Assembly (NCBI GenBank): GCA_026014705.1
Contig: JAOZHU010000005.1
Location: 1 to 64,000 of the forward strand
Direction: 5' to 3'
Source of the DNA: Candidatus Bathyarchaeota archaeon
GTDB lineage: Archaea; Thermoproteota; Bathyarchaeia; Bathyarchaeales; Bathycorpusculaceae
Length of the DNA: 64,000 nt
Shown here piece after piece: positions 53,014-60,562 of this stretch. The notes below the pieces were generated by a model. It searched no databases. It was not told the DNA's origin and saw only the letters and a list, made by a program, of their open reading frames with translations. A program made the translations under genes and the position numbers. How positions within the stretch are numbered: the stretch's first letter is position 1; every line of letters begins with the position of its first letter.

Positions 53014-53026
53014 CATGGCGGTAAAT

Positions 53027-54571
53027 ATGAACAAACCTCTAATAGTAGGCATCCTACTGACAGGCATACTCGTCACCTCAATTATGATAGGTTACAGTCA
53101 GAACTGGTTCCAGCAACCATCATCACCATCTGAACCATCTCCTGAAACATCATCGTCTCCTGAACCAACAGCAACGCCGCAGTCAACTTCAACGCCTCAA
53201 CCAACACCGTCCCCTCAAACGACTTCAACGCCTCAGCCGACAGCCACTCCGCAGCCAACAGCCTCTCCCGCATCAACAGTCGCCTCGCTGAACTTGGTGC
53301 TTGAAATTTACGGAAACGCCAACATGGACGACAAGATAGACTCAAGCGACGTAGACTACGTGTCAAGAATAATCGGCGGAACCGCTAGTAACACCCAGTT
53401 TGCAGACGCCAACAGAGACGGAATAATAGATACAAATGACATAACGCAAATCAATGCACTCATAAATGGTCAAGCTTCAAAAATCTACCTCCTAGACGGC
53501 AACAAACAAAATATTTCAGTCTCGTTGCCCGCAAACAGATTAGTAGTCGAATACAACCAAAACACAGAGCTTGTGCGCATACTCGGGATAGAAAACCTCG
53601 TTGTCGGCGTCGACTCTGGCGTTAACCCAGTTAAGACCTTATTCTTTCCAGAGAACGCCGCTAGCATAACATGCGTCGGCGGCATGAGCGCCCCAGACTA
53701 CGAAGCAGTCCTAAACCTCAACCCCACCACACTACTGGTTTTCGCTCCAGGCTCTGGCACCACCGCCACCGTAGCTGAAAAAGCATCCAAGTTACCCGGT
53801 GTGGATGTAGTTTACTTGGGATTATACAGTCCAAACGTTACCAAACCTGAGGATTCTAGATTCATCCAAGGCGTACTAAAAGCGGGCTATATCTTTAACA
53901 AAGTTGCCCGAGCAACAGAATACGCAAACTGGATACTCAACATAACATCATACATCAGCACAAGAGTAAATACAATACCAGAAAATCAAAGACGGACAGT
54001 GTTACTCACCAATAGCCCTACCATCGGCAGCGCTAGGGCATACGTAGCCCTCGACACACTGGGGCAAGCGTGCATTTTGGCAGGCGGCACGAACATAGCT
54101 AATGCACCTGCTGGTTCAACGGCTCTTTCAGTAACGCTGGAGACTGAATTCATAGTTTCACAAGATCCAGACTACATTTTCCTGCATACTGTAAGATACA
54201 CGTACGGTGGAGGCACAAATCCGCCAGCCCAAGGCATAGACGCTAATGACCCGTCTGAGATGGCGAATGTTTTGCAACAATACGTTTCTCAAGCAGCATT
54301 TGCGAATCTTAAAGCAGTTAGGAATAATCATGTTTACTTGATTGCAGGTGACTTCAGAAACAATGCAATGGGCGGCACATTAGGCGCAGTCTACATGGCA
54401 AAAATACTCTACCCCGAAGTATTCGCTGAGCTAAACCCTCAAGCCATACATCAAGAATACTTGACAAAGTTCCTGCGCTTGAGCTACAATTTAGACACAA
54501 ACGGCGTCTTCCTCTACCCGCCGATAACCGTAAACGGTGACACTGTAGGGATACCCAACGGAACCGCCTGA
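53027..54571 (+). CDS. Metal-chelate ABC binding protein with dockerin-like insert
   Basis: About 514 aa from ATG 53027 (GGCGGT upstream; ATG 53015 also in frame). An N-terminal anchor (IVGILLTGILVTSIMIGY) is followed by a Pro/Ser/Thr linker (~residues 30-85). A dockerin/EF-hand pair follows: ANMDDKIDSSDVDYVSRI and ANRDGIIDTNDITQI with DxDxD-like loops. A class III binding domain (BtuF/FepB type) runs from ~150 to the end. The calcium-binding pair and long linker could hold the binding domain out from the membrane. First gene of the plus-strand unit. Confidence 0.9.
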   Translation: MNKPLIVGILLTGILVTSIMIGYSQNWFQQPSSPSEPSPETSSSPEPTATPQSTSTPQPTPSPQTTSTPQPTATPQPTASPASTVASLNLVLEIYGNANMDDKIDSSDVDYVSRIIGGTASNTQFADANRDGIIDTNDITQINALINGQASKIYLLDGNKQNISVSLPANRLVVEYNQNTELVRILGIENLVVGVDSGVNPVKTLFFPENAASITCVGGMSAPDYEAVLNLNPTTLLVFAPGSGTTATVAEKASKLPGVDVVYLGLYSPNVTKPEDSRFIQGVLKAGYIFNKVARATEYANWILNITSYISTRVNTIPENQRRTVLLTNSPTIGSARAYVALDTLGQACILAGGTNIANAPAGSTALSVTLETEFIVSQDPDYIFLHTVRYTYGGGTNPPAQGIDANDPSEMANVLQQYVSQAAFANLKAVRNNHVYLIAGDFRNNAMGGTLGAVYMAKILYPEVFAELNPQAIHQEYLTKFLRLSYNLDTNGVFLYPPITVNGDTVGIPNGTA

Positions 54572-56651: not shown

Positions 56652-57530
56652 TCAATTAGTGCTTGTTCGCTGTTGCATTCTCTCGTAGTGATAAAGATAT
56701 TCCTGCGCATACCCTGCGTATTCACCGAAATAACTTCTGCCAAACGCGTTCAAACGCTCGTATTCACCGCTGCTGAAAGTCCTGTTTGCATTCATTTTCT
56801 GAGTGAACTCTTCAGGAAACTCAGTCGAGTAATGATTCAGTATTGCGCGTTTCACCCAAACATCTACGGGAAACGCTTCCAGTTTTCCCAGAGAAAAAAG
56901 CAAAACGCAGTCAGCGACTTTTGAGCCTACACCTGAGAAACCGCACAACGCCCTCTTGGCTTGCTTGTACGGCATCTTCCGCAAGCTGTTCAAATCGAAG
57001 CTGCCTTCGCTGATTCTCTGGGAAGTTTCAAGAACATATCTGGCTCTGTAGCCTAATCCGCATGCTGCCAAGCCGCTTGCAGTTGCTTTCGCCAGCTTTT
57101 TCGCCGTGGGAAATGTGTAAAAATCGTAGCCGTCGAGCTGTGTCTGTTCGCCAAATCTTTGTGAAAGTTTCAGCAGCATCTGCTTTATCGCAGCGATGCT
57201 CTTGTAGGTAGCGCAAATATAGGAGGCAAGGCATTCCCACGGCTCTTGCCTGATTATCCGCAAGCCCCAAAACGCCCGTATAGCCATGCTGATATGTGCA
57301 TCTTTGTTTATGCTTTGGGTTATTCGCTGGTAATCCTCATCCAAACCAAAATAATGCGTGACAAAGTGTTCGGTAACATTTGCGAATTCCACTTCGCCGT
57401 TTAGTTGGCGTATCTTGAACGCTTTGTCTCCGGCAACGCCGTACCACCAATCGCCTTTCCGTTCCCACCTGAAAACTTGACCGCAACAGAGCGTAGCGTC
57501 CAAGTTAAACGGCACCGCATTAAGCTTCAC
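56652..57530 (-). CDS. ogg: 8-oxoguanine DNA glycosylase, OGG1 type
   Basis: A 292-aa HhH-GPD glycosylase/lyase. LCGFSGVGSKVADCVLLF has the helix-hairpin-helix and catalytic Lys (K204); FPVDVWVKRAI has the conserved Asp (D223). The N-domain (FNLDATLCCGQVFRW) matches OGG1 rather than short AGOG forms. It removes 8-oxoguanine paired with C and nicks the strand. It lies just downstream of the EF-2-like gene on the same strand. Confidence 0.92.
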   Translation of the reverse strand: MKLNAVPFNLDATLCCGQVFRWERKGDWWYGVAGDKAFKIRQLNGEVEFANVTEHFVTHYFGLDEDYQRITQSINKDAHISMAIRAFWGLRIIRQEPWECLASYICATYKSIAAIKQMLLKLSQRFGEQTQLDGYDFYTFPTAKKLAKATASGLAACGLGYRARYVLETSQRISEGSFDLNSLRKMPYKQAKRALCGFSGVGSKVADCVLLFSLGKLEAFPVDVWVKRAILNHYSTEFPEEFTQKMNANRTFSSGEYERLNAFGRSYFGEYAGYAQEYLYHYERMQQRTSTN

Positions 57531-57533
57531 AGT

Positions 57534-59687
57534 CTAAGCGTCCTCCAAGAACCTTTCGGGTTTAGGAACCTCCGATGGTAAACCCTTCTGCTTCCGTGTC
57601 TCCGCGATGACTTCCGACGCCAACTTTTCAGGCATTTTACTCCAGCGCTCCAGTACGAACTGCCAAAACGCTCGACCAGAAGTTGCTGACCGCATTTCCT
57701 CGGCTAAACCGAAGGTTTCCGCAACAGGAATGTAACCCCTAATCACCGCTAAAGCACCTTTCTGCTCGAATTTCGAGATTTTTCCGCGCCTCCCGCTTAG
57801 AATTCTGGAGCATTCACCAGCCAACTCCGTGGGAACTGAAACAGCAGCTCTGTAAACTGGCTCAAGAAGAACAGGCTTAGCGGTCAAAACAGCGCCGAAA
57901 ATGGCTTTGCCTACTCCATGCGTGATTTCCACAGGGTTACAGCACTCTGCGTTTTCGTTAAGCTGCATCTTCAACAGGTTCACTTGCACATGCCTTAATG
58001 GCTCTCCGCATAACGGACCAGCTTTGCAGGCATACTCAAAGCCTGAAGTCAGAGAAGTCGTTATTCCGCGTGTGTTCATGGGTGCGCTTGTGCAATTAAT
58101 CAACACGTTTTTGTGCTGCTCATCAACTGCAAGCACGTTTGTCTTTTCCCGCGCTGTTGTGCCTTGCGCTATTAACGTTATGAACTGTTCGTTTACAGGT
58201 TCCACTTGCACAACAAACTTGTTCTGCTTGTCAGGACTTTTTGCTGTTGCAATGAGGCTTTTTCGGGTTATGCTTTCGCAGTAAACAACTCTCGGCGAAG
58301 ACGCTTCAATTGCCACTCCGCCTCCGTACTCGCTTAGAAGTTTCAAGGCAACTTCAAGATGCAGCTCGCCCATTCCGCTTAGAAGGCATTCTCCAGTCGT
58401 CCTGTCAACTTCAACTGCAACGTTAGGGTCTTCCACCGCAAGCTTTTCCATGGCTCCAAGCAGAAAAGGCATCTCGGCAGGGTTTTTAGCCTCGACTGCT
58501 ACGGTTAACACTGGCTCTGAAACATAGCTAATGCGCTCAAAAGGCGCCATCTCCGCTTTGTGTTCAGAGGCAACTAGAGTTTCACCTGCCTTCGCCTGTG
58601 TCAATCCACTTAAAGCTGCCACGTTGCCAGCTGTCACTTGGTTTACGGGTTCCTTGAAAGCGCCCATGAAAATGGAAACCTGTGAAATTACGCCTTCAAC
58701 ATTAGCGTTAACAAGGTAAACTGCAGCACCAGTTTTTAGAGTACCCGAGAACAAACGCCCAGTTGCGGTTAAGCCGCCTTGCGGATCAGCCTGCACATTT
58801 GTGATGCACATGACTGCAGCGCCGTTGTCATCGCAGTTCAGCATGGCTTGCCCTATTTCTGAGGATAAATTGCCTCGCCAGATTTTTTCTAAGCGGTATT
58901 TTTGGGCTTCAAGCGGGTTTGGGATATGATTGACAGCCATGTCGAGTATCACAGTGTGAAGCGGCAAAGTCTTCTGCAGTTCCTCATGCGCTGCTTTTTC
59001 GTAGGCAGCTATAACATCGCTGAACTTCATGTTGCTTACCTTAGCAGTGTTTAGGGTGAAACCCCATCTATGCAAGGCTGAACCAAACGCGACACTGTTT
59101 TTTGCAGCGTCAACTTTCCATTTCTCCTTGAAAGGAGATTCGCCGTAAATTTCAATTAGGTCGTTGAAACCGCCGATTATGCGCGTGAATTTTTTCTGGA
59201 TTTGCTCAGCGGTTAATTTCAGCTCGGTGATTAAACGGTCTACTTTGTTTATGAAAAGCACAGGGCGCACTCTTTCCTCAAGCGCTTGCCGAACCACGAT
59301 TTCCGTTTGCGCCATTATCTCCTCAACTGCGTCAACAACCACTATTGCGCCATCGATGGCGCGCAGTGCTCGCGTAACTTTGCCTGTGAAGTCCACATGC
59401 CCAGGAGTATCCACAAGGTTAATTACGAAAGACCCGCTTGCGGTTCGATAAAGCAGGGATATGTTCGCGGTTTTCATCGTTATGCCGCGTTTCTGCTCTT
59501 CCTCGAGATAATCTAGAACTCTGGCTGGACCCGTTGCTGTCGAAGACAATAGTCCAGCACCAACCAGCAGCGAATCAGTCAAAGTGGTTTTTCCATGGTC
59601 AATATGCGCGATTACGCCCAAATTCCGAATCTGCTCTTTCTTGCCCATTAACTTTAGAATTTCAGCGATTTGTCTGAACCTAGGCAT
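57534..59687 (-). CDS. EF-2-like translation factor lacking the diphthamide histidine
   Basis: A 717-aa EF-2 homologue, near the usual ~730. GTPase motifs are intact: AHIDHGKTTL, RGIT, DTPGHVDF, NKVD. All EF-2 domains follow. In domain IV, where archaeal EF-2 has HEDPAHRGPAQ, this protein has NENAECCNPVE, so the residue modified to diphthamide is Cys (about residue 582, codon 57942-57944). The N-terminus (MPRFRQIAEILKLMGKKEQIRN) fits the EF-2 leader. Probably a paralogue or a diphthamide-free EF-2. It may act in elongation or recycling. Confidence 0.9.
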   Translation of the reverse strand: MPRFRQIAEILKLMGKKEQIRNLGVIAHIDHGKTTLTDSLLVGAGLLSSTATGPARVLDYLEEEQKRGITMKTANISLLYRTASGSFVINLVDTPGHVDFTGKVTRALRAIDGAIVVVDAVEEIMAQTEIVVRQALEERVRPVLFINKVDRLITELKLTAEQIQKKFTRIIGGFNDLIEIYGESPFKEKWKVDAAKNSVAFGSALHRWGFTLNTAKVSNMKFSDVIAAYEKAAHEELQKTLPLHTVILDMAVNHIPNPLEAQKYRLEKIWRGNLSSEIGQAMLNCDDNGAAVMCITNVQADPQGGLTATGRLFSGTLKTGAAVYLVNANVEGVISQVSIFMGAFKEPVNQVTAGNVAALSGLTQAKAGETLVASEHKAEMAPFERISYVSEPVLTVAVEAKNPAEMPFLLGAMEKLAVEDPNVAVEVDRTTGECLLSGMGELHLEVALKLLSEYGGGVAIEASSPRVVYCESITRKSLIATAKSPDKQNKFVVQVEPVNEQFITLIAQGTTAREKTNVLAVDEQHKNVLINCTSAPMNTRGITTSLTSGFEYACKAGPLCGEPLRHVQVNLLKMQLNENAECCNPVEITHGVGKAIFGAVLTAKPVLLEPVYRAAVSVPTELAGECSRILSGRRGKISKFEQKGALAVIRGYIPVAETFGLAEEMRSATSGRAFWQFVLERWSKMPEKLASEVIAETRKQKGLPSEVPKPERFLEDA

Positions 59688-59791: not shown

Positions 59792-60562
59792 TTGAACGCA
59801 CCCATCATATTGCCTATTGAAAAAATGAAGGAAGAACCCTACGCCAATGTGCTCTGCTATCCGCGAGCAAACGAAACTGAAGTGCAAACGCGCATTGAAG
59901 AACTGCGGAAACACGGCGTTAAGAAGTTGGAATTCGCAGGGGGAACAAGCGTTTTCAACGTGCCAGTTCTAGGCAAAGGCTTCGTAGGCATAGCCGTAAT
60001 AGCCCACCTAAACGGGCAAAGAGTCGCCCTGAAAATTCGAAGAGTAGACGCTGACCGACTTGGACTGCAGCATGAAGCATCGATGCTGACGAAAGCCAAC
60101 ACCGTAAATGTGGGACCAAAACTCATAAGCGCAACCACAAATTTTCTCTTAATGCAGCTCATCGACGGTGATTTACTTCCCAAATGGCTGGAACTGCACA
60201 AGAAAAAAGAGCCAGCGCGCACGGTTTTAATGGATATTTTAGAGCAGTGCTGGCGGCTAGACGCAACTGGCTTAGACCACGGAGAACTAAGCAAAGCGCC
60301 AAAACACGTAATCATTGATGCAAAACAGCAACCATTCATCATTGACTTTGAAACCGCCAGCATCAACCGAAAAACCGCAAACGTCACAGCCATCTGCCAA
60401 TATATCTTCGCAGGCAATAGCAGCGTAGCCCACATGGCGGCTGAAACGCTCGGCGAAAATAACCATGACGCTATAGTTGAAGCCCTGAGAACCTACAAGC
60501 ACAATAAGAATCGAGAGAACTTTGAACATCTGCTGCAGATCTGTTTCAGCGAAAAAAAGTAG
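59792..60562 (+). CDS. Archaeal protein kinase-like protein (COG2112 type)
   Basis: A 256-aa kinase-fold protein from a TTG. AGGTSVFNVPVLGKG gives a glycine loop, VALKIRRVDADR the ATP-binding Lys, LDHGELSKAPKHVIID the catalytic-loop variant (HGEL for HGDL), and FIIDFETAS the metal Asp. Such small archaeal kinases are RIO/lipopolysaccharide-kinase-like and probably phosphorylate Ser/Thr. Divergent from the EF-2-like gene by ~100 bases; a link to translation is possible only. Confidence 0.8.
   Translation: MNAPIILPIEKMKEEPYANVLCYPRANETEVQTRIEELRKHGVKKLEFAGGTSVFNVPVLGKGFVGIAVIAHLNGQRVALKIRRVDADRLGLQHEASMLTKANTVNVGPKLISATTNFLLMQLIDGDLLPKWLELHKKKEPARTVLMDILEQCWRLDATGLDHGELSKAPKHVIIDAKQQPFIIDFETASINRKTANVTAICQYIFAGNSSVAHMAAETLGENNHDAIVEALRTYKHNKNRENFEHLLQICFSEKK

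Follow-up and report, generated by a model that had tools for sequence, protein, structure and literature searches.

The window, that is, the whole stretch of 64,000 nucleotides that was analysed, carries on its minus strand a gene for an EF-2 paralogue, named hereafter type A, flanked by the genes for an OGG-type 8-oxoguanine DNA glycosylase (OGG) and a RIO-like kinase (Table 1). Just past the window (L004:14854-17030) lie two PurP-like (DUF1246/DUF1297) genes in tandem, which accompany the EF-2 locus. Elsewhere in the window, the product of positions 53015-54571 is a substrate-binding protein of the metal or cobalamin type, one stretch of which weakly resembles dockerin (PF00404, E 2.5e-4, short of the cut-off).

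Table 1. Features of the type A EF-2 locus (positions in the window)
Feature	Positions	Strand	Remarks
OGG-type 8-oxoguanine DNA glycosylase	56652..57530	(-)	directly downstream of type A; marks ancestral type A locus
Type A EF-2 paralogue	57534..59687	(-)	717 residues in five domains; diphthamide site absent; TIGR00490 732 bits
Diphthamide loop NENAECCNPVE (residues 577-587)	57927..57959	(-)	HEDPVHRGPAQ in canonical EF-2; from alignment
Codon TGC (Cys582)	57942..57944	(-)	at diphthamide His position
Second tip loop of domain IV, SPDKQN (residues 484-489)	58221..58238	(-)	Gln488 in place of the counterpart of yeast eEF2 His583
RIO-like kinase gene	59792..60562	(+)	divergent from EF-2; other conserved flank of type A locus; start codon uncertain

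At the place of the canonical HEDPVHRGPAQ the type A ORF has QLNENAECCNPVEI, as the first-pass annotation had claimed for its domain IV loop, and alignment likewise assigns the TGC codon to the position of the diphthamide His, with no His restored there. The GTPase motifs, described as intact in the same annotation, are indeed so, and all EF-2 domains were detected with Pfam. That is, the window protein has the domain order, G motifs and five-domain EF-2/EF-G architecture of canonical archaeal EF-2, but lacks the domain IV tip and the HxDxxHRG loop with its diphthamide His (NENAECCN), and its match to the NCBIfam model TIGR00490 (aEF-2) falls just under the curated cut-off of 738.45 bits. Its AlphaFold2 model (mean pLDDT 85) shows the full EF-2 fold, and the best structural matches of the model are archaeal EF-2 crystal structures. 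Among the structural matches was also Snu114 of the U5 snRNP, an EF-2 fold diverted from translation, which belongs to the eukaryotic spliceosome and has no counterpart here.

The change in domain IV had been described as local, a view that did not hold: canonical invariants are retained to 97% in domains I/G, 92% in II, 87% in III and 91% in V, but to just 50% in domain IV, and a change is seen in the second tip loop too, from SPNKHN to SPDKQN with loss of its His. In yeast eEF2, diphthamide-699 together with His583, Asp696 and His694 grips the codon-anticodon duplex (PMC8674143; PMC4861600). Yeast H583, H694, D696 and H699 align with Q488, N577, N579 and C582 of the window protein, which, judged from this alignment, is without all four residues that hold the duplex in eEF2.

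The second EF-2 and the ancestry of the two copies

Two EF-2 genes are present in the bathyarchaeal genome of the window (G000, a 96%-complete MAG). The second, named hereafter type B, lies on a different contig (G000:C3:37359-39575), has the loop HEDPVHRGPAQ and shares about 43-45% identity with the window protein. Furthermore, the genome contains dph1/2 (on contig C18), dph5 (on C38) and four PF01902 (dph6-type) genes, any one of which may serve in diphthamide synthesis. The dph genes and the HRG-bearing EF-2 that the first-pass annotation had suggested looking for are thus both there, and of the two alternatives it had offered, the second EF-2 stands, whereas a cell without any diphthamide, which the absence of a modifiable His from the window EF-2 might have indicated, is highly improbable given these genes.

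EF-2 was surveyed in 151 genomes of the order, with wider samples of 250 genomes of the phylum and 151 of the class. The order has two EF-2 families, type A being order-wide and type B seen only in this order; most of the window protein's named relatives come from Bathyarchaeota/Bathyarchaeia. One genome (G006) has two His-bearing type A genes on different contigs (L114 and L115), reflecting duplication or mixed strains. Type B proteins are 74-100% identical among themselves and at most 52% identical to anything else in the 250 phylum and 151 class genomes, in which no EF-2 at 52%-74% identity to type B was found, and their loop is identical in every full-length copy examined. In a mixture-model tree type B fell outside both type A and the remaining Thermoproteota EF-2, on long branches that make its placement unsure, for which reason no donor is named, and a grouping of B and the order's A as one clade was weakly rejected (p-AU 0.023).

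In the tree, the window protein belongs to a 41-member clade of type A, and His-less type A proteins are scattered over several separate places. The order of the genes for type A, OGG, RIO-like kinase (divergent, upstream) and PurP-like proteins is the same at His-bearing and His-less loci, which supports the orthology of the two kinds of type A. In several genomes type B sits between type A and the kinase gene, head to head with A. Tree and synteny together make the window gene orthologous to the order's ordinary His-bearing EF-2, and the His-bearing type B is a divergent, order-restricted lineage. The second EF-2 proposed in the first-pass annotation is borne out, but not the implied arrangement in which the window gene would be a side copy derived from the original, since it is the window gene that is the native EF-2.

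Erosion and deletion of type A across genera

Intact type A with HxxxxHRG occurs in 13 of the 13 genera examined without B, and in genomes without B the type A loop reads HEDPVHRGPAQ. Four of the genera with B (g10, g15, g16 and g64) have members with an intact HxxxxHRG type A; in the remaining genera with B, type A is eroded or missing, where some of the 'none' entries in the genus table (e.g. G102, those without B) stand for loci left out or merged and not for true absences. Intermediate loops comprise HEDPVHRNPAQ, HENPTYRGSAQ, HEDPTQREPTQ and HEDPKLHETAQ, then SENAEHRSPVE-like sequences, and the loops of type A in genus g4 are 2-4 residues shorter. All four duplex-contacting residues are kept in type B (30/30) and in 13 outside EF-2s; none of the four is left in 27 of the 41 members of the window's clade or in 8 of the 11 members of the f9 clade, the His at 488 and the diphthamide His having been lost in parallel in these two clades. 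Eroded type A proteins also carry clade-specific, near-fixed residues, e.g. Glu in place of Gln after the loop.

A parsimony count gave four changes with regain allowed, and the number of losses was therefore argued from the branching of type B, which served in place of a species tree, with regain of the exact loop assumed absent. On this basis we infer at least four independent erosions: in G131, in G109, in a group on the side of the window protein and in the f9 group. The dN/dS values were 0.08-0.18 for close pairs of eroded copies, as compared with 0.02-0.05 for type B and 0.03-0.12 for intact type A, which indicates purifying selection, albeit somewhat relaxed, on the eroded copies. This selection, together with the fact that same-clade relatives also lack the site but with different residues at it, makes a sequencing error or a chance frameshift in the window unlikely, and a pseudogene was rejected on the same grounds.

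In twelve genomes that carry B no type A was detected, nine of them being 91-100% complete. The type A locus was read in seven of the twelve. In four (G038, G080, G086 and G146) OGG adjoins the kinase gene, with type A cleanly gone, and in two (G104 and G113) two other genes occupy its place, including one for a radical SAM protein in G104. The seventh, G089, has a fossil beside a methyltransferase gene, in which type A is reduced to its first ~67 codons, with a frameshift; it lies at L259:4244-4446, between the RIO-like kinase and OGG genes. The existence of B-only genomes means that type A is dispensable where B exists and not essential in all of the order.

The converse, an eroded type A without a match to B, was seen in ten MAGs. 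In genus g40, B lies beside the genes for uS19 and ArgRS, and ArgRS is missing too from four of the six B-less g40 genomes (G016, G023, G027 and G039); in G031 the contig breaks off within ArgRS, at the end where B would be expected, and in G078 ArgRS is present in a different gene context. Absence or truncation of an essential neighbour such as ArgRS points to an assembly or binning gap in these five g40 genomes and not to a true loss of B, and an eroded A as sole EF-2 was rejected for them, whereas G078 fits either case; the check covered the six genomes of g40, the other four of the ten MAGs belonging to g4. One of the g40 genomes, G027 (95% complete), has no match to dph1/2, dph5 or type B besides lacking ArgRS; these absences are probably gaps, but may be a real loss of diphthamide.

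Possible roles of an EF-2 without its domain IV tip

The reading that we favour, at a probability of about 0.8, is that the window gene is a vertically inherited EF-2 that would have been freed from translocase duty by type B, which keeps the diphthamide site. Type B, diphthamide-modified, would carry out elongation, and type A would still use the factor site to bind ribosomes or the 50S subunit, and would hydrolyse GTP, but would no longer escort mRNA-tRNA in the A site, serving in an accessory role. In EF-2 and EF-G, GTP binding and contact with the large subunit's factor site fall to the parts that are conserved here, and the eroded part is the one that reaches the decoding centre. Conservation of the former and not of the latter makes a ribosomal GTPase that is no longer the main translocase the most economical explanation, and the confinement of erosion to clades carrying B supports it. 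Weighing against it are the ten MAGs with eroded A in which B went undetected, the two members of the window's clade (G134 and G139) that retain a His at the diphthamide position in an otherwise altered loop, and an independent-pairs test of the association between erosion and B that had too few pairs to reach significance. The B-only genomes also count against it, in that the job of A cannot be essential throughout the order.

As to what type A may do, work on the 50S side, such as aIF6 release, is the role that we would name first, if tentatively. Type A would then be a maturation GTPase and a functional analogue of eukaryotic EFL1. This is attractive because archaea lack a homologue of EFL1 and because Sulfolobus EF-2, acting alone, frees aIF6 with GTP and needs neither tRNA nor mRNA nor diphthamide to do so (PMC8024482). 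The decoding-centre tip would be superfluous for such a task, in keeping with an erosion specific to domain IV while domains I, III and V are conserved. EFL1/Ria1 is likewise an EF-2-derived GTPase that does not act in elongation, and GTP-dependent IF6 release is a candidate shared role. EFL1, however, is a chain of 1120 aa with an insertion that is absent from the window protein, which at 717 aa has the standard EF-2 domains only and is far closer to archaeal EF-2 (690 bits for Sulfolobus-type EF-2 vs 253 bits for EFL1, 5anb_K). Moreover, no linkage to aIF6 or SBDS genes was seen in the neighbourhoods read, and in the B-only genomes, which do without A, B would have to do the aIF6 job. A functional analogue of EFL1 is possible but on the unlikely side, and ribosome recycling, rescue or hibernation would be a comparably uncertain assignment.

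A back-up or conditional translocase that avoids the need for diphthamide has about the same, rather low, likelihood. The five-domain fold and GTPase motifs are retained, dN/dS is like that of some His-bearing type A pairs, and the growth of yeast is nearly normal when diphthamide is missing or eEF2 carries H699N (PMC4861600). Most of the window's clade, however, is without all four duplex-contacting residues, half of the domain IV invariants are gone, the loop is shortened in g4, and the gene has been deleted outright in several lineages. Some other role, or none, is a little less probable again. In particular, it is doubtful that type A is simply redundant and in slow decay towards loss with no role kept: the deletions and the frameshifted fossil in related genomes would agree with such a course, as would an evolution faster than that of type B, but dN/dS remains at the values given above, all G motifs and 87-97% of the invariants outside domain IV are kept in the window protein, frames are open over a 41-member clade spanning many genera, and the near-fixed clade-specific residues also argue against it.

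Archaeal EF-2 paralogues without the diphthamide residues have reportedly been described by Narrowe and colleagues in 2018. According to PMC10307638 (citing Narrowe et al. 2018), many archaea without dph genes encode a second EF-2 that lacks these residues. The present case is alike in having a second EF-2 in the genome and one copy without key domain IV residues, but differs in that the host of the window keeps dph1/2, dph5 and PF01902 genes, and in that the degraded copy is the order's native EF-2. No Bathyarchaeia case was found in the literature searched, a scope that did not include the lineage list of Narrowe et al. 2018, so that novelty is provisional. Two Asgard EF-2s in our data, in L050 (Baldrarchaeota) and L054 (Odinarchaeota), have the loops HKNPEMRDPSQ and HKNPEMRDSSQ, respectively, and are ~49% identical to the window protein; they are likely the already reported kind of Asgard paralogue.

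Going beyond the favoured reading of a native EF-2 freed by type B, a less likely possibility is that a near-universal, essential factor of translation has been displaced in one group of archaea, in that a second EF-2 took over elongation and the native one was released several times independently, leading to a specialised tip-less GTPase (e.g. an archaeal counterpart of EFL1) or to loss. The native EF-2 is caught here at every stage, i.e. intact, partly eroded, fully eroded, as a fossil and deleted. Trees of EF-2 in Bathyarchaeia can mix two lineages. Since type A has eroded where diphthamide is still made, losing the site can be told apart from losing the pathway, and the eroded type A series offers natural variants with which the function of diphthamide and of the domain IV tip could be tested.
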